From Sinomonas sp. ASV486 (lineage in GTDB: Bacteria > Actinomycetota > Actinomycetes > Actinomycetales > Micrococcaceae): a DNA stretch of 64,000 nt. The notes below the pieces were generated by a model. That model had not been told where the DNA came from and did not search any database. It saw only the letters and a program-made list of their open reading frames with translations. Below, piece after piece: positions 1,319 through 48,975 of the stretch. How positions within the stretch are numbered: the stretch's first letter is position 1; every line of letters begins with the position of its first letter. Both the position numbers and the translations under genes were made by a program. The stretch spans positions 310,001 to 374,000 of the forward strand of contig NZ_JAVFJK010000002.1 in assembly GCF_030908215.1 (NCBI RefSeq), in the 5' to 3' direction.

Positions 1319-2224
1319 TCACCCCCGCTGTAGGGCCTCCGTGGCCGCCCAGCTCGCGAGCAGCCGCAGCCGCTCCTCGCTCGCCGAACCGGGCTCGGCC
1401 GTGTAGGCGAACATAGTCCAGCCGGGATTGGCGGGCAGTTCCATGGCCTCGTAGGCGAGCTCGAGGTCGCCGACCACGGGGTGGTGGATCCGCTTGTGGC
1501 CCGTGCGGTGGAAGCGGACGTTGTGGGCTGCCCAGCGCACGCGGAACTCCTCGCTCGTCACGGAGAGTTCGCCGATGAGCTCCTGGAGGGCGCGGTCGTG
1601 GGGGCTGCGGCCGGCGTAGCCCCGGAGGGTCGCGACGACGTCGTCCATGTTCTTCTCCCAGTCCGGGTAGAAGTCGCGCGCCGCGGGGCTCGTGAAGAGG
1701 AAGCGTGCGTTGTTGGCCGGCGTCCCCGGGGACGCGGTGGCCTCCGTGACGGGAGTGTACAGGGCGCGGCCCAGCGCGTTGGCCGCGACGAAGTCCATCC
1801 GCTCGTTGCGCACCCAGGCCGGCGCGCCGGTGACGGCGTCGAGGAAGCGCTGGAGGCTGTCCCTGACCTCGGGTGCACCCGACCCACGCGCACGACGGCG
1901 CGTGCCCGCCGCGCCCTGAGCAGCGGACTGCTGCGACGCCGACCGCTGCGACGCCCTGGCGAGGTCGAAAAGGTGGGTCGTCTCGGCCTCGTCGAGCTGG
2001 AGGGCGCGGGCTAGCGAGTCGAGCACCTCGTCCGAGGCTCCGGAGAGGTCGCCGCGCTCGAGGCGCGCGTAGTAGTCAGCGCTCACGTTCGCCAGAAGGG
2101 CGACCTCCTCGCGGCGCAGGCCGGGCACGCGGCGTCGGCTGCCTCCGATGAGGCCCGCCGATTCAGGGCTCACATGGGCGCGGCGGGTGCGGAGGAACTC
2201 GCGCACCTCACTTCTGGTGTCCAT
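1319..2224 (-). CDS. XRE-family / MmyB-like transcriptional regulator
   Basis: Encodes 301 residues. An N-terminal helix-turn-helix (about residues 10-75) carries the family signature G-L-R-R-E-E-V-A-x-L-A-x-V-S followed by Y-Y-x-R-L-E-R-G. Residues about 110-290 form the MmyB-like ligand-binding domain (W-V-R-N-x-R-M-D, F-x-F-x-S-P-x-A-R-x-F-Y-x-D-W, then H-H-P-V-V-G-D-L-E-L). MmyB-like regulators bind fatty-acid-like ligands and usually control a neighbouring oxidoreductase or transporter. Its ATG overlaps the end of the upstream Pr6Pr gene by 17 bases, so the two are probably co-translated. The aldo/keto reductase at 3061 may be part of the same unit. Confidence 0.9.
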   Translation of the reverse strand: MDTRSEVREFLRTRRAHVSPESAGLIGGSRRRVPGLRREEVALLANVSADYYARLERGDLSGASDEVLDSLARALQLDEAETTHLFDLARASQRSASQQSAAQGAAGTRRRARGSGAPEVRDSLQRFLDAVTGAPAWVRNERMDFVAANALGRALYTPVTEATASPGTPANNARFLFTSPAARDFYPDWEKNMDDVVATLRGYAGRSPHDRALQELIGELSVTSEEFRVRWAAHNVRFHRTGHKRIHHPVVGDLELAYEAMELPANPGWTMFAYTAEPGSASEERLRLLASWAATEALQRG

Positions 2225-3005
2225 GGTTCGAGGGTACGGTTCGCTCCCCGCGATTGGGGCGCCCTGTCAGGGCACGGATCAGCGGTCGGTCGGTCAGTCG
2301 CGGCGCAGGGTGGGCCACGGCGAGGCCAACGCGGACGTTGCCGGCCACGTGGATGAGCACGGCGACCACGAGGAAGGCTGCCAGCACCTGGGACGTCGTG
2401 ACGAAGACTCCCGGCCACCCGCCGTCGAGCGTCGGATCGAGGAAGTCGTAGACGTACCAGCCGTCGATCCCGCCGCGGATCCACGAGAAGGCCAGGAACG
2501 CGGCCGGGTAGACCATCCAGGCGAGCGGCCGCCACCACCTGCCGCGGACGGTGCGCGTGACGAGGATCCAGTCGAGCGCCATGACGAGCGGGACGATGCG
2601 GTGGTGGATCATCTGCGGCCAGTACATGTCCAGGGTCCACCATGGCTCGCTGGGCGGCGCGACGAGGACCACGTAGATGATGCCCGTCATGACCATGTAG
2701 AACGTGAGCGCGCCGAACAGGTGGTCCCACCAGAGCGGGAGCCTGGTACGCGGCCACGCCGCGGAGGCGATCAGGACGAGCCCGACGGCCAAGTTCGACT
2801 GGACGGTGAACTCGGAGTAGAGCTGCGGGATGTCGACGTCGTTGGTCGGCAGCGTCGCGTCCATCGTCTTCTGGATGAGCGCGACGAGGACGGCGACCCC
2901 CACGGCGGCACGCACGAGGCGGATCCAGAGGCGGTCGGGGTGAAGCGCGTGGTTGAGGGCGAGGTTGTTCTCCGCCGGAGGGATCAGTGTCGATGCGCCG
3001 CTCAT
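2208..3005 (-). CDS. Pr6Pr family membrane protein (paralog 1)
   Basis: Encodes 265 residues from the ATG at 3005 (a GTG two codons upstream is also possible). Six hydrophobic segments and W-W-D-H-L, M-T-G-I-I-Y and W-W-R-P-L-A-W match the actinobacterial Pr6Pr/FAR-17a-like integral membrane family of unknown function. A close paralog lies at 48250-48975 on the same strand, with long identical blocks (for example D-W-x-L-V-T-R-T-V-R-G and A-F-L-V-V). Both paralogs are followed directly by a regulator gene of a different family. The C-terminal 40 residues here are hydrophilic and not shared. Confidence 0.8.
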   Translation of the reverse strand: MSGASTLIPPAENNLALNHALHPDRLWIRLVRAAVGVAVLVALIQKTMDATLPTNDVDIPQLYSEFTVQSNLAVGLVLIASAAWPRTRLPLWWDHLFGALTFYMVMTGIIYVVLVAPPSEPWWTLDMYWPQMIHHRIVPLVMALDWILVTRTVRGRWWRPLAWMVYPAAFLAFSWIRGGIDGWYVYDFLDPTLDGGWPGVFVTTSQVLAAFLVVAVLIHVAGNVRVGLAVAHPAPRLTDRPLIRALTGRPNRGERTVPSNHGHQK

Positions 3006-3060
3006 GGCCACAGTCTGCTGCTGCGCGGCGTGCGCACCCAGAGTCGAAAGTACTGCCAGC

Positions 3061-38284: not shown

Positions 38285-39472
38285 GTGGACGGCGTGACCG
38301 CGACGAAGGACTCCGACCAGCAGACAGGCGCCGGCAGCATCCCCGACCCGGTCCTGAGGTCGATCGGCTTCCTCTCCTTCTTCGACCGCTTCGCCACTCC
38401 CCCGATGCTCGTGGTCCTGGCCAACCGCACCGATCTCACGCTCGCCGACGCCGTGGGCCTCGTGGCGTCCTACTCGCTCCTCTATGCGCTCGGGCAGCCG
38501 CTGTGGGGGTTCATCAGCGACCGGTTCGGCCGCGTGACAGTGCTCCGCACGGCACTCGTGGGGCTGCTGCTGGCCGCCATCGCCAGCACCCTGTTCAGCG
38601 CGCACGTGCCACTGCTCATCGCGAGGTCGGCGGCCGGGCTCATGGCCGGGTGCCTCTACCCCACGCTCCTGACCATCATCGGCGACACGCGCACGGGCAT
38701 CGAACGCGCCCGCGGACTCTCCGACCTGCAGATCTATTCGGCGCTCGGCACCACGGTCGCGACCCTCGCCGCGGGCGCTCTCGCGGCGTTCACGGACTGG
38801 CGGGTGGTGTTCGGGCTTCCCGCGCTCGGGTGCCTCGCGCTGCTGCTCTTCCTCCGGCGGGCGCACGACGGCGCCGCTCACCGCCGCGGGCGCGTTGACG
38901 TCCGCGCTGCCTTCTCGGGCGCAGCACTCGGCGTCTATGGGGTGGCGATCCTCGAGGGCGCCGTGCTCATGGGCATCCTGACCTACTTCGTTCCGGCCCT
39001 CCAGCACGCCAACGTGCCGATCGCCGTCGCGGGACTCCTCGCGTCGGGGTACGGGGTGGGCGTGATCGTGGGGGCGCGGCTCATGCGGCGTCTGGTGCAG
39101 CGGTTCACGCGGACGCAGCTCATGGGGATCGGCGGGGTGGTGCTGCTGGTCGGGTATGTGGCGTCGTCGATCTCGCAGAACCCGGCGACGATCACTGTCA
39201 CCGCCGTCCTCGTGGGTGCTTCGAACGCGGTGCTGCACTCATCGGTGCAGGGCTGGGCCACCGAGGTCGCGCCGAAGGCCCGTGCTACGGCGGTCTCGCT
39301 GTTCGCGTGCTCGCTCTTCTTGGGCAGCTCGGCGGGCACGTTCCTCACGGCGGGGCTCGCCGGCAATGGGGAGTACGGCGCCATCTTCCTCCTCGGCCTC
39401 GTAGCGACGGCGTTGCTCACGGCGGTCGTGACGCTCGGGCACGCGACGTGGGAACGGCGCCGGGTGTCGTGA
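38285..39472 (+). CDS. MFS transporter (YNFM/arabinose-efflux-like)
   Basis: Encodes 395 residues, 12 membrane segments, from GTG 38285 (GTG 38294 possible). F-F-D-R-F-A at helix 1 and S-D-R-F-G-R (motif A) are seen. It has no long loops, and belongs to a general 12-helix exporter type. Probably LysR-controlled. Substrate unknown. Confidence 0.83.
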   Translation: MDGVTATKDSDQQTGAGSIPDPVLRSIGFLSFFDRFATPPMLVVLANRTDLTLADAVGLVASYSLLYALGQPLWGFISDRFGRVTVLRTALVGLLLAAIASTLFSAHVPLLIARSAAGLMAGCLYPTLLTIIGDTRTGIERARGLSDLQIYSALGTTVATLAAGALAAFTDWRVVFGLPALGCLALLLFLRRAHDGAAHRRGRVDVRAAFSGAALGVYGVAILEGAVLMGILTYFVPALQHANVPIAVAGLLASGYGVGVIVGARLMRRLVQRFTRTQLMGIGGVVLLVGYVASSISQNPATITVTAVLVGASNAVLHSSVQGWATEVAPKARATAVSLFACSLFLGSSAGTFLTAGLAGNGEYGAIFLLGLVATALLTAVVTLGHATWERRRVS

Positions 39473-39776
39473 AGGGCGGCGTGCGTCGTGAAGGGCGCTG
39501 CGCGGGGCGCCGCGGGCGGCGGCTCACGGTGTTCGCGTTCCTCACGAACGGTAGTTTCCTGACGTTCACCCCGGGCTGGCTATGATCAGCTGTTGACCGC
39601 GACTGGACCACACGTGGGCCGCTTGCGGTCAATCCATGTCCAGCGCCCGCACGCGGCCACGACGTGACCAAGAGTGGCCCGATCTGGGTCGTCATTGGCC
39701 ACCTGTGACCACAATGTGGCCGCTGGAATGCACGGGTATTGAGCAGATGCCCGTCGAACGATGAGAGGAGATGCAT
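39473..39776. other. Gene-free 304-base region upstream of the actin-like module
   Basis: No plausible gene. The first 50 bases contain a duplicated GTCGTGAAGGGCG. From 39593 the sequence turns into the repeat array described separately, followed by the ribosome site GAGAGGAG at 39763-39770 that fixes the adaptor start. Confidence 0.6.
39593..39721. repeat. Centromere-like array of GRCCAC / GTGGCC repeats (parC candidate)
   Basis: TTGACCGC (39593-39600) is perfectly inverted at 39625-39632, enclosing GGACCACACGTGGGCC. Then GGCCAC (39655-39660) pairs with GTGGCC (39674-39679), and TTGGCCAC (39695-39702), TGACCACA (39706-39713) and GTGGCC (39716-39721) follow. Clustered direct and inverted iterons right upstream of a ribbon-helix-helix gene and an actin-like gene have the layout of a parC centromere/autoregulatory promoter. 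Confidence 0.55.
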
Positions 39777-40190
39777 ATGGCCAGTCCCCGAGAAGGGACG
39801 GGTGCGCCGGTGAAACCGCAGCCCCACCGTTTCCGGGTGAGCGTCCCGGCGGCCGACGAGGCCGTCGTGGCGTGGATGGAGCTGCAGGACAATCCGTCAT
39901 TGTCGGTGAGGATGCTGATCCGCGAGAGCATCGAGCGCCTCGGCTACATCGACGTCGTCAACCGCCCTGTGGCACAGCTCCCGGGGGGAGTCCGTTCTGG
40001 GGGCTCCTCCCCTGAGGACACCGCGGGTTCTCCTGCCCGGGGGTCAGCTGCAGCCCAACCCAGGAAGGCCCCCGACCAGAGGCCATGGCCAGCGCAGGAG
40101 GCCGAGCCGGCGCGCGAGTCCCGTTCCGAACCTGAGCCGCCTTCTGCAGGACCGATGGACATCAACGACATCTTCGCGATGACGCGGTAA
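39777..40190 (+). CDS. Small ribbon-helix-helix-like adaptor (ParR candidate)
   Basis: Encodes 137 residues. The ATG at 39777 is chosen because GAGAGGAG ends 7 bases before it; the ATG at 39771 is too close. Residues about 17-65 fit one strand (F-R-V-S-V) and two helices (D-E-A-V-V-A-W-M and S-V-R-M-L-I-R-E-S-I-E-R-L-G), a ribbon-helix-helix pattern. Residues 70-125 are disordered. The last residues M-D-I-N-D-I-F-A-M-T-R form an amphipathic tail like the ParM-binding tail of ParR proteins. I do not recognise a named family; the ParR role is inferred from layout. Confidence 0.6.
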   Translation: MASPREGTGAPVKPQPHRFRVSVPAADEAVVAWMELQDNPSLSVRMLIRESIERLGYIDVVNRPVAQLPGGVRSGGSSPEDTAGSPARGSAAAQPRKAPDQRPWPAQEAEPARESRSEPEPPSAGPMDINDIFAMTR

Positions 40191-40248
40191 GCCCGCGCAG
40201 CGCAAGCAACACAGTCTCCACCGAATTTCACCGAAGGGAATCATCCAC

Positions 40249-41580
40249 GTGACCATCTCAATCAATCTCACCGGCGGGATCGACGTCGGCAACGGCTATG
40301 TCAAGGGAATCATCCGCGGGGAGCGCGCTTCCGGCGCGGCGAGGATCGACGAGATCGATCTGCCCAGCGCCGTCGCGCTCGTCACCAGGTCCAACGCGCT
40401 TCCGGACGCCGACCACGAGGCCATGGCCAAGCTGGATGGCGACTTCTACAACGAACTCGATGTGAGCTTCGACTCGCCTCTGGTCGGGGACAAGTACCGG
40501 CGCCTCTTCGGTACCCGGGCGCTGAGCGCCCAGGGCGCCTTCGACGAATTCGACGTCGTGGGCCGCCGCAGCAAGGCCGCGCAGGAGCTGAGCAAGGTCC
40601 TCGTCATGGGCGCCTTCGCGGCGAAAGCGCTTCGGGACTACGTCCGCGAGCACCGTGCGCTCCCGCCGGCCGATGAGACGCTCAGCGTGCAGGGTCGCGT
40701 CGCCCTGGCCCTTCCGATCAACGAGTACCTCACCCACCGCACGAGCTACGCGACAGAGTTCACGACCGGCACGCACACGGTCACGGTGCACAACTTCGAC
40801 ACTCCGGTCTCGGTCAAGCTCCACTTCGTCGACGTGCAGGTCATCCCCGAGGGTGCCTCGGCGCAGTACGCGATCACTGCCAAGGGTGAACCGCTCATGG
40901 ACGCGATGCTGAAGGACCTCCGCCGCAGGGGCGTGGCGCTCGAGGGCATCACCTCCGCGGACGTCCTGGCCGCCCAGCACACGGTTGGCATTGACATCGG
41001 CGAGGGCACCGTGAACTTCCCGGTCTTCACCGCGGGCAGGTTCAACGCCGATGCCTCCACCACGTACGGCAAGGGCTACGGTTCGGTGCTCACGGACGCC
41101 CTCAAGGCGATGGACGACCGCGGCTTCGTCTCGGGCTTCACGTCCCGCAAGCAGCTCGCCGAGTACCTCCAGGCCGGTCCGTCACCGCTGAAGCGCAACT
41201 TCTACGAGAAGGTCGCGCGCTTTGTGGAGGAGGAGATGATCTTCTTCTCCAAGGAGGTCACGGAGCAGTTCGGCCGCGTGCTCGCCGTCGTCGGCGCGAC
41301 CACGGAGGTCGCCTACGTCTACGGCGGCGGATCCGGTCCGGTGAAGACCTTCCTGTACCCGGCGCTGCTGGCCAAGGCCACCGAGATGAACTCGGACGAT
41401 GCCTTCCCGACCCTGTACCTGGATTCCTCCTACTCGCGTCACCTGAACCGCGAGGGGCTCTACATCGCGGCCGAGGCCGTCGAGCGCAATGCGGGCGCCG
41501 CTCCCGCGCAGGCCTTGCGCGGGAAGCGCAGCGCCCAGAGCGCCTCGGAGGGCAAGGAGCTCGCCGAGGCGGCCGTATAG
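40249..41580 (+). CDS. Actin-like ATPase of the ParM/StbA type
   Basis: Encodes 443 residues from GTG 40249 with AAGGGAA upstream. Actin-fold motifs: phosphate 1 G-G-I-D-V-G-N-G-Y-V-K-G (residues 9-20), phosphate 2 V-G-I-D-I-G-E-G-T-V-N-F (246-257) and adenosine motif V-Y-G-G-G-S-G-P (about 363-370). This is the bacterial actin-homolog set of ParM/StbA/Alp plasmid-segregation filaments. It follows the adaptor by 58 bases and is closed by a hairpin. It may be a chromosomally integrated plasmid/phage segregation unit or a domesticated cytoskeletal element. Confidence 0.85.
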   Translation: MTISINLTGGIDVGNGYVKGIIRGERASGAARIDEIDLPSAVALVTRSNALPDADHEAMAKLDGDFYNELDVSFDSPLVGDKYRRLFGTRALSAQGAFDEFDVVGRRSKAAQELSKVLVMGAFAAKALRDYVREHRALPPADETLSVQGRVALALPINEYLTHRTSYATEFTTGTHTVTVHNFDTPVSVKLHFVDVQVIPEGASAQYAITAKGEPLMDAMLKDLRRRGVALEGITSADVLAAQHTVGIDIGEGTVNFPVFTAGRFNADASTTYGKGYGSVLTDALKAMDDRGFVSGFTSRKQLAEYLQAGPSPLKRNFYEKVARFVEEEMIFFSKEVTEQFGRVLAVVGATTEVAYVYGGGSGPVKTFLYPALLAKATEMNSDDAFPTLYLDSSYSRHLNREGLYIAAEAVERNAGAAPAQALRGKRSAQSASEGKELAEAAV

Positions 41581-41619
41581 CCTCTCCGGCCGGCCCTTCC
41601 ATGCCGACCCGTCCACACA

Positions 41620-41652
41620 GGGGCCCTTCCCGCGCAGCGCGGGGAGGGCCCC
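41620..41652. terminator. GC-rich hairpin after the actin-like gene
   Basis: GGGGCCCTTCCCGCGC (41620-41635) pairs with 41637-41652 with one G-T wobble and a very short loop, 40 bases after the stop. Ends the adaptor/actin operon. Confidence 0.75.
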
Positions 41653-41688
41653 TGGCGTCCGGCCTCGGGCGGCCGGCACCAGCGAACG

Positions 41689-41910
41689 GTGCTCATCACG
41701 GTGACGCGCTGGGCACTCGGCGAGGGATCGGCGTCGTGCTTCTGCGTGGCCGGCACACTCGAGGTGCGCCTGAACTCCGGGGAGACGGCCACCATCACTG
41801 CCGACGACTCGTACACGATCCCGCCCGGGCACGACGCCCACGTGGTCGGCGATGAGAAGTTCGTTGGCCTCGAGTTCCTCAGCGCCGCGAGCTACGCGAA
41901 GGGCGACTGA
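41689..41910 (+). pseudogene. Cupin-domain protein, C-terminal half (probably truncated)
   Basis: The frame encodes about 73 residues from GTG 41689. F-C-V-A-G-T-L-E-V-R-L-N-S-G, Y-T-I-P-P-G-H-D-A-H-V-V-G-D-E is the second half of the cupin proteins that normally begin with about 45 further residues including the first metal motif. The upstream frame is open through the terminator but has no cupin sequence. Likely a 5'-deleted remnant beside the actin module. Confidence 0.55.
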
Positions 41911-48249: not shown

Positions 48250-48975
48250 CTAGGCTCTGTGAGGGCGCGCCCTCCCCACCGCCCTCTCCCCCGACAGCGC
48301 CACGCGGACGTTGCCCGCGAGGTGGACGAGGGTCCCGACCACGAGGAAGGCCGCGAGCACCTCGGCACCCGTGACCAGCACGGCACCCCACCCGCCGAAC
48401 CTCGGATTGAGGAAGTCGTAGGGGTACCAGCCGTCGAGGGCGCCGCGCACCCACGAGAAGGCCAGGAAGACGACCGGGTAGGCGAGCCAGGCGAGGGGCC
48501 TCCACCACGGGCCGCGGACGGTCCGCGTGACCAGGAGCCAGTCGAGGCCCGCGACAACCGGGGCGATGCGATGGGTGACCATCCACGGCCAGTACAGGTT
48601 CAGTGTCCACCACGGCTCACCGGGCGGTGCCACGAGCACTGCGTAGATGATGCCCGTCATCACCAGGTAGAACGCGAGGGCCCCGGACAGGTGGTCCCAC
48701 CACCGGGGAAGCTGCGCCCGCCGCCGCACGGCGGAGACGAGGAACATGAGCCCGAGGACGAGGTTCGAGTGGAACGTGAACTGGGAGAAGAGCTGCGGGA
48801 TGTCGACCGAGTTGCCGGGCTGCGTCGCGTCGTAGGTCTCCTGGGCGAGGGCGGCCAGCATTGCGAGTCCCGTCGCCGCGCGGATCAGACGGATCCAAGG
48901 GCGGTCCGGATGGAGGGCGTCATTGAGGCCGTGGTTGCGCTGGGTTGGGGAATTCAACGTCGACATGCCGCTCAT
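48250..48975 (-). CDS. Pr6Pr family membrane protein (paralog 2)
   Basis: Encodes 241 residues from ATG 48975. It shares most of its length with the product of 2208-3005: D-A-L-H-P-D-R-x-W-I-R-L, W-W-D-H-L, M-T-G-I-I-Y, E-P-W-W-T-L, R-T-V-R-G-x-W-W-R-P-L-A-W, F-S-W-V-R-G. Six membrane segments. The paralogs look like an ancient gene duplication, each now coupled to a different regulator (XRE there, IclR here). Confidence 0.8.
   Translation of the reverse strand: MSGMSTLNSPTQRNHGLNDALHPDRPWIRLIRAATGLAMLAALAQETYDATQPGNSVDIPQLFSQFTFHSNLVLGLMFLVSAVRRRAQLPRWWDHLSGALAFYLVMTGIIYAVLVAPPGEPWWTLNLYWPWMVTHRIAPVVAGLDWLLVTRTVRGPWWRPLAWLAYPVVFLAFSWVRGALDGWYPYDFLNPRFGGWGAVLVTGAEVLAAFLVVGTLVHLAGNVRVALSGERAVGRARPHRA

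Follow-up and report, generated by a model that had tools for sequence, protein, structure and literature searches.

What does an actin-type DNA segregation module do in a metabolic region of a bacterial chromosome? The locus that raises this question lies in a stretch of 64,000 nucleotides from Sinomonas sp. ASV486 (contig NZ_JAVFJK010000002.1, positions 310,001 to 374,000 of the forward strand), hereafter the window, where a phased repeat array, the gene of a small predicted adaptor and the gene of an actin-like ATPase follow one another within 39594-41580. The original prediction, made from the letters of the window, had placed such a module in this setting and proves right in kind. We consider it probable that this solitary cassette is a complete working actin-type segrosome, akin to AlpAC-alpS and ParMRC, which originated on a mobile replicon and today stands alone on the chromosome, where it probably serves a chromosomal job.

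The ATPase groups with the actins of DNA partition

The ATPase gene (40249..41580, + strand, GTG start) encodes a protein of 443 residues, a ParM/AlpC analogue by Pfam, PHROG, fold and tree, which matches the Pfam family ALP_N (PF17989; E 1.4e-10, above the cut-off) as well as PHROG 691 'partition protein' (E 4.9e-22), and it is the only ALP_N match in its own genome. The phosphate-1 motif DVGNGYVKG (residues 12-20, 40282..40308, + strand) is invariant in a 13-row alignment, and the phosphate-2 motif DIGEG spans residues 249-253 (40993..41007, + strand). Across all 16 aligned loci, the window included, D12 and G14 of phosphate 1, D249, G251, E252 and G253 of phosphate 2, and G359-G361, a GGG which we take to be the 'adenosine motif', are invariant. 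The names of the phosphate motifs follow the available text of PMC4446434.

An AlphaFold2 model built on 13 sequences, with a predicted local distance difference test (pLDDT) score of 70.7, adopts a fold like that of ParM and Alp7A. Foldseek ranks 1-10 and 15-17 are occupied by ParM/Alp proteins (BtParM, E 1.8e-15), the matches including Alp7A, pSK41 ParM, pCBH ParM, Dh-cParM1, Alp12 and R1 ParM; an archaeal actin homologue and cyanobacterial CorM rank in between, and MreB is absent among the best 50 rows. The template-modelling (TM) scores are modest, at 0.40-0.50 by query length over the first 23 rows, which may be expected because the model was built on 13 sequences. A profile of the sequence alone, run against solved structures, found nothing convincing (best E 0.038, to an unrelated protein; a ParM construct at 0.65). 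The actin fold and the nucleotide-binding motifs required of the ParM/AlpC superfamily are thus both present, as had been predicted from the intact phosphate motifs. With respect to actin homologues outside segregation, the ATPase sides with the partition actin-like proteins (ALPs) both in Foldseek and in a tree that includes plasmid members but no MreB, FtsA or MamK, and its plasmid relatives are annotated as ParM or StbA.

A predicted DNA-binding adaptor precedes the ATPase

The gene directly upstream of the ATPase gene in 16/16 aligned loci (39777..40190 in the window, + strand, ATG start) encodes a protein of 137 residues that we predict to be a DNA-binding adaptor analogous to ParR and AlpA. 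Its layout is the same in all 16 loci, with a conserved N-terminal block, a variable linker of proline, alanine and acidic residues, and a short C-terminal tail. The conserved block (residues 18-59, 39828..39953, + strand) contains the residues R20, P24, D27, Q37, S41, L47, I48, R49 and G56, which are invariant in all 16, while the N-termini differ between groups of adaptors, reading RFRVSVP in one and RLRWSVP in another. A low-confidence model (pLDDT 56.8) places an extended stretch and two helices (25-36 and 42-55) in this part of the protein and a small helix at 129-134; because an extended stretch and two helices make up the N-terminal block, alignment and model together suggest a ribbon-helix-helix protein. 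A match to DUF3780 (E 0.0095, below the cut-off) was too weak to identify the adaptor and was rejected.

The C-terminal tail PMDINDIFAMTR (40152..40187, + strand) is a candidate ATPase-binding peptide, again from alignment and model. The window adaptor ends in DINDIFAMTR, and the tails of the solitary group are of the type NDIF(S/A)xxR, with other short tails elsewhere.

A phased repeat array lies in the promoter region

Upstream of the adaptor gene, TGRCC/GGYCA half-sites recur at a pitch of 10-11 bp to form a centromere-like array (39594..39721) analogous to parC and alpS. Allowing up to one mismatch, 12 of the 13 slots over 128 bp are filled, at positions 39594, 39605, 39616, 39627, 39637, 39655, 39665/6, 39675/6, 39687, 39696/7, 39706/7 and 39717, with the empty slot near 39647. 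The 220 bp 5' of the adaptor hold nine exact half-sites, two of them overlapping, and the exact in-phase chain comprises six sites at 10-11 bp with one slot skipped; neither the count nor the chain was reached in 500 dinucleotide shuffles or in 1265 other tiles of the window. When one mismatch is allowed the chain grows to 8 (p 0.004), a value matched or exceeded by 7/1265 tiles. The predicted array of GRCCAC repeats 5' of the adaptor therefore holds as an array, but the hexamer was rejected as its repeat unit, since GRCCAC is common throughout the window (181 occurrences against 122 expected). Rather, the special feature is the 10-11 bp spacing.

A sigma-70-like promoter, CTGACG-16-TATGAT (39559..39586, + strand, consensus scan), lies directly before the array; it scores 9/12, with one such site found against 0.2 expected, which by itself is no proof of function. 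A second copy of the array was sought in the same genome and none was found, the short matches reaching an E of 0.05 at best; the only possible cargo in cis is therefore the stretch of chromosome on which the array lies.

Exact half-sites are also enriched upstream of the adaptors of S. mesophila and S. albida (8 and 9 sites, respectively). Exact k-mer enrichment copes poorly with arrays whose units lie in both orientations, and phase tests took its place. A motif-free phase statistic gives p <= 0.007 in 7/14 upstream regions (window, S. mesophila, S. albida, L014, L015, L023 and L024), p 0.047-0.08 for L005, L007 and L013, and p >= 0.19 for L004, L012, L020 and L021. Sites of the form TGGYC/GRCCA are in excess before the element-borne copies L014 (5 sites) and L015 (6), but not before L013 and L024, and a reading by eye suggests a series of GGGTT/TGACC/GGGTC in 10-bp phase in Arthrobacter. 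We also considered whether the array belongs to the DNA that the Sinomonas species have in common and rejected this, as that conserved block begins in the adaptor gene or a short way upstream of it.

How the three parts may work together can be proposed by analogy with described systems. Adaptor dimers would load onto the array of 10-11 bp half-sites, the phased repeats being observed and their binding by the adaptor predicted. As the array begins at the likely start of the transcript, the adaptor should also repress its own operon, which makes autoregulation likely. The short C-terminal tails of the adaptors would catch the end of ATP-driven actin-like filaments, and growth or capture of these filaments would move the DNA that bears the array.

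Purifying selection acts on the ATPase

The conspecific genome G011 carries the same module at the same site, with 98.8% identity to the window over 10.7 kb. Between the two, the ATPase gene differs by 12 synonymous and 0 nonsynonymous changes, where ~36 nonsynonymous changes would be expected under neutrality (binomial P 6e-8), and the adaptor gene by 7 synonymous and 4 nonsynonymous changes (P 0.009), three of the four falling in the linker. The adjacent transporter gene, taken as a control, shows 15 synonymous and 6 nonsynonymous changes; constraint on the ATPase is no weaker than on this neighbour. Over nine pairs of loci the ratio of nonsynonymous to synonymous substitution rates (dN/dS) is 0-0.21 for the ATPase and 0.18-0.74 for the adaptor. 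Because 12 synonymous changes stand against no amino-acid change since the conspecific split, we conclude from the sequence comparison that the ATPase appears to be in use on the chromosome and no dead remnant. Between the two options that the original prediction had offered, a remnant of integration or a working system, the data thus favour the working system, and the remnant survives only as an account of origin, in the empty insertion site and the scar described below.

The cassette was inserted into a chromosomal site

In G011 the module lies within a single contig of 4.29 Mb, and its residence is hence chromosomal. No plasmid- or phage-like Pfam name occurs among the 30 neighbouring genes scanned between 25.1 and 57.4 kb (59 other genes were called in the window as a whole), in agreement with the prediction that such genes are absent nearby; two of the 30 have no Pfam match. 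No tRNA gene was found, Rfam gave no match at gathering score and PADLOC gave none.

The left border is formed by a transporter gene of the major facilitator superfamily (MFS; 38285..39472, + strand, Pfam MFS_1), which has orthologues of 78-84% over at least 1170 of 1188 bp in six congeners that lack the cassette. In these six the insertion site beside the MFS gene is empty, and a complete cupin open reading frame (ORF) follows the MFS orthologue in five, with none in the available DNA of the sixth. In the window, the 3' end of the MFS gene recurs as a decayed duplicate (41687..41739, + strand, blastn) that marks the right edge of the insertion between the cassette and a cupin gene truncated at its start (41689..41910, + strand; Cupin_2 below the cut-off), and this copy matches the MFS 3' ends of four of the six congeners (E 4e-9 to 2e-5). 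Since the site is empty in congeners, the MFS 3' end duplicated and the cupin 5' part lost, the cassette was inserted, and its arrival was accompanied by local duplication and deletion. The region 41687-41910 is still eroding, as the conspecific G011 retains ~110 bp of the cupin gene absent from the window. No recombinase that could tell the mode of insertion is left at the cassette.

After the ATPase gene lies a GC hairpin of 17 bp (41618..41654, + strand; region -41.6 kcal/mol, z -5.0). The predicted downstream terminator is not borne out, given that the hairpin lacks a T run and a terminator scan found none. Elsewhere in the window, two regions ~45 kb apart, 2208-3011 and 48250-48975 (- strand), encode proteins with similar N-termini (...HPDRxWIRLxRAA...), the latter of which has no Pfam match.

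Relatives occur as solitary cassettes, on plasmids and in apparent replicative elements

The closest relatives of the ATPase are chromosomal, namely those of S. mesophila, S. albida and Arthrobacter-type loci at 79-86%, a chromosome contig of megabase size being shown for G011 and G170 only. Among 72,556 plasmid records there are 67 matches, the best from Streptomyces NBC_01454 (54.9%), Rhodococcus DN22 and Gordonia KTR9 pGKT2 (both 50.8%) and R. fascians GS01 (50.0%); the other 56 plasmid matches listed come from Firmicutes and one Aeromonas and reach 32% at most. No relative was found in 50,697 phage records (tblastn of the ATPase, E 0.01), and among viral contigs none was found with the single ATPase protein as query and one with an alignment. 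An IMG/VR contig of 251 kb that falls outside the actinobacterial group (L035:5590-7218) has an adaptor of the same architecture directly before an ATPase 50% identical to that of the window.

In a maximum-likelihood tree of 23 ATPases, eight solitary rows fall together (93/98, just under the support star), nested in a group to which plasmid and element copies belong as well. The 16 actinobacterial rows, with the Streptomyces and Rhodococcus plasmid members, are grouped at 96/90, and 17 rows including the IMG/VR contig at 100/99; the long Firmicutes branches are flagged as unsure. By genome, the ATPase is present in 4/15 of the genus (the own and the conspecific genome included), 13/395 of the family (two of them stumps), 6/396 of the order (two weak and with an internal stop) and 1/396 of the phylum, which is the own genome, in samples that overlap. 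The two stumps (L063 and L064, in G109 and G380) retain no more than the final ~70 codons of an ATPase of the solitary type and share 3.4 kb of flank at 88%; they represent an old loss of the cassette.

All-against-all comparison of the flanks, counting shared pieces of at least 150 bp, separates two contexts. Six loci (G018, G143, G281, G389, G381 and G992) have common flanking blocks, on the left side at least, those of G281 and G389 being 99.97% identical. Ten proteins scanned from the G281 element include a topoisomerase, a Y-family polymerase, DHH/RecJ, DUF5906/Pox_D5 and a SNF2 helicase, with five lacking a Pfam match, and inspection by eye adds an ORF like a single-stranded DNA-binding protein. 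From this gene content, the G281 module appears to sit in a large replicative element within a contig of 4.4 Mb. A family of such segrosome-carrying elements in actinobacterial genomes is represented by L058, L071, L072 (G281), L057 (G143), L061 (G992) and L056 (G018).

The other context comprises nine loci of Micrococcaceae (the window, G011, S. albida, S. mesophila, L004-L007 and G170) that have only the module in common, as a lone cassette. The window and G011 occupy one site, and there is no further shared flank among the other solitary loci. For L004, L005 and G170 the shared DNA runs from ~1.3 kb upstream to ~25 bp past the ATPase gene, and for L007 it is slightly shorter; L006 is a contig of 6.7 kb with a masked stretch, whose site cannot be placed. 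A divergent ORF of ~100 codons (MSAERKASRHAQEFRWHQ...), ~0.7-1.3 kb before the ATPase gene, accompanies the Arthrobacter-type cassette in L004, L005, L007 and L062, and by eye an inverted repeat, CTGCTCC...GGAGCAG, lies at the far end of this ORF in L004, L005 and L062.

Comparison with known systems

Known ParM/ParR loci have the motor gene upstream of the adaptor gene, an order from which alpAC differs, as PMC4446434 describes. Consistent with this, all six Firmicutes plasmid relatives have a small ORF after the ParM gene, so that the ATPase comes first, whereas the adaptor comes first in 16/16 aligned loci here. The predicted order parC-parR-parM is therefore correct as a sequence of array, adaptor and ATPase, but it is not the classical ParMRC order and resembles AlpAC instead. 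Indeed, the nearest described system is AlpAC-alpS of the Corynebacterium glutamicum prophage CGP3, together with its homologue on Gordonia pGKT2. The likeness to this system (PMC4446434, PMC5539076) lies in the order repeats-adaptor-ATPase and in an ATPase that branches with ParM. AlpA binds repeats in the promoter region, and the cassette array likewise lies in the promoter region, with binding by the adaptor predicted. In contrast, AlpAC resides in an excising and replicating prophage, whereas the window cassette has no phage-like Pfam name among the scanned neighbours, and alpS consists of 24 TTAAnnG repeats, whereas the cassette array has ~12 TGRCC/GGYCA half-sites.

PMC4446434 names homologues of alpA and alpC on pGKT2. 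We find a single ATPase match on this plasmid, preceded by a small adaptor ORF identical to the DN22 row of our alignment; this match is presumed to be KTR9_4800 of that paper, the record carrying a newer locus tag. The ALP_N match in C. glutamicum falls below the cut-off, and the link to AlpC is an indirect one that runs via pGKT2.

The chromosomal cParMs of Desulfitobacterium and Clostridium (PMC12270681), to which the fold match Dh-cParM1 belongs, also combine a chromosomal ParM-fold ATPase with a small partner gene. Those listed there are from Firmicutes and one Burkholderia, actinobacterial terms being absent from the main text, and their partner gene lies up- or downstream, whereas the adaptor here is always upstream and the cassette stands alone with no interspecies flanks. 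With ParMRC of plasmid R1, Alp7A, BtParM and pSK41 the cassette shares the fold, the nucleotide motifs, the small partner gene and the phased repeats. It differs from these in gene order, in reaching 32% at most to the Firmicutes plasmid members listed, and in being a single-copy chromosomal locus instead of residing on a low-copy replicon. The FcmBC pair of Nostoc (PMC12645912) is likewise a former plasmid partition pair fixed on the chromosome, but FcmBC is described as conserved in filamentous cyanobacteria, with a role in cell shape and the ATPase gene first, whereas the cassette is patchily distributed and has a centromere-like array.

Chromosomal ParMs and a prophage AlpAC with its pGKT2 homologue are thus already known from the available texts of PMC12270681 and PMC4446434, respectively. 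What is new is a lone cassette in AlpAC order on actinobacterial chromosomes, with no interspecies flanks, a phased array kept in Sinomonas and an ATPase under selection; among the matches listed from open-licence papers, no printed record of a solitary ParM-type cassette in Sinomonas or Arthrobacter was found, and those literature matches held nothing on CorM.

Alternative explanations

Several observations weigh against a complete segrosome settled on the chromosome. None of the 16 adaptors matches a ribbon-helix-helix family in Pfam, and Foldseek and other family and fold searches gave no match. The expectation that the array would be conserved in relatives holds for the motif in three Sinomonas species and, in its TGGYC form, for some element-borne relatives, but the three Sinomonas arrays share the half-site yet are not alignable (best blastn E 0.018), and the DNA shared between these species starts within the adaptor gene or shortly upstream of it and stops where the ATPase gene ends. 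In Arthrobacter the signal is weak, the solitary copies L004, L005, L007 and L012 having phase p values of 0.047-0.72 and an exact chain of only 2 (p 0.006-0.018; 55/1265 tiles reach 2). The exact motif is in no excess before the plasmid copies L020, L021 and L023, and the phase signal of L023 may stem from ATATA runs. Finally, the patchy distribution in genus and family is more in keeping with a mobile trait than with an established function on the chromosome.

Three alternatives are special cases of a working system. An exapted cytoskeleton, in which a former partition pair serves cell shape or other housekeeping as FcmB/FcmC do, overlaps with the explanation that we prefer and is in itself unlikely. 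There is precedent in ParM-type genes that moved to the chromosome and are needed for rod shape (PMC12645912) and in the cParMs of Firmicutes (PMC12270681), and the cyanobacterial filament protein CorM, considered by title only, is among the fold matches; yet a phased centromere-like array would be superfluous for a pure cytoskeleton, and presence in only 4/15 genomes of the genus is unlike a shape gene.

Equally improbable is an incompatibility decoy, whereby array, adaptor and motor would capture and mis-sort incoming replicons with a related centromere. In the same family, large elements do carry related modules, two of the four element-borne types tested have a surplus of TGGYC/GRCCA sites upstream, and the binding specificity of ParR can set plasmid incompatibility, as described in PMC9426499. 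No family genome has both types, although ~0.1 would be expected by chance, so that this carries little weight. However, the different N-termini of the two groups of adaptors make cross-recognition unsure, and there is no PADLOC match.

Still more doubtful is an auxiliary role in chromosome segregation, with the cassette helping to move its own chromosomal region. The distance between dnaA and the module is ~196 kb (4.6% of the contig) in one and ~383 kb (9%) in the other of the two chromosome-size contigs with the solitary type. Two Arthrobacter-type genomes have the urease region that flanks the S. mesophila locus 244-281 kb away from dnaA, and in G005 of the genus Sinomonas this region falls at coordinate 1.07 Mb, so that the S. 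mesophila locus favours neither side. By contrast, the position of the S. albida flank in G011 is ~1.0 Mb away from dnaA, the sites differ between species, 11/15 genomes of the genus have no cassette and, in the available text of PMC12270681, ParCMR is yet to be implicated in chromosome segregation. That the locus is what erosion has left of an integrated plasmid or phage, its par genes surviving by chance, is just as hard to credit, for although the empty site in congeners, the decayed MFS duplication and the truncated cupin gene would suit it and the two stumps imply that such loci do decay, none of the 12 ATPase changes relative to the same-site conspecific alters the protein and the ATPase dN/dS stays low in all nine pairs.

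Significance of a probable chromosomal segrosome

A working segrosome of mobile origin thus remains the explanation that we prefer. We suggest more tentatively, as a minority possibility, that the chromosomal segrosome of the solitary lineage has been domesticated to serve the host, either by moving its own site or by trapping and mis-sorting incoming replicons with related centromeres. If this were true, it would mean actin-based exclusion of plasmids or phages, and a cassette of ~2 kb that spreads between chromosomal sites with no recombinase of its own. Actin-type partition is usually viewed as plasmid and phage machinery, its chromosomal cases being either of unknown function or turned into cytoskeleton. 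With an intact and selected cassette that includes its array, in soil actinobacteria with empty-site relatives, a chromosomal gain from a ParM system becomes testable.

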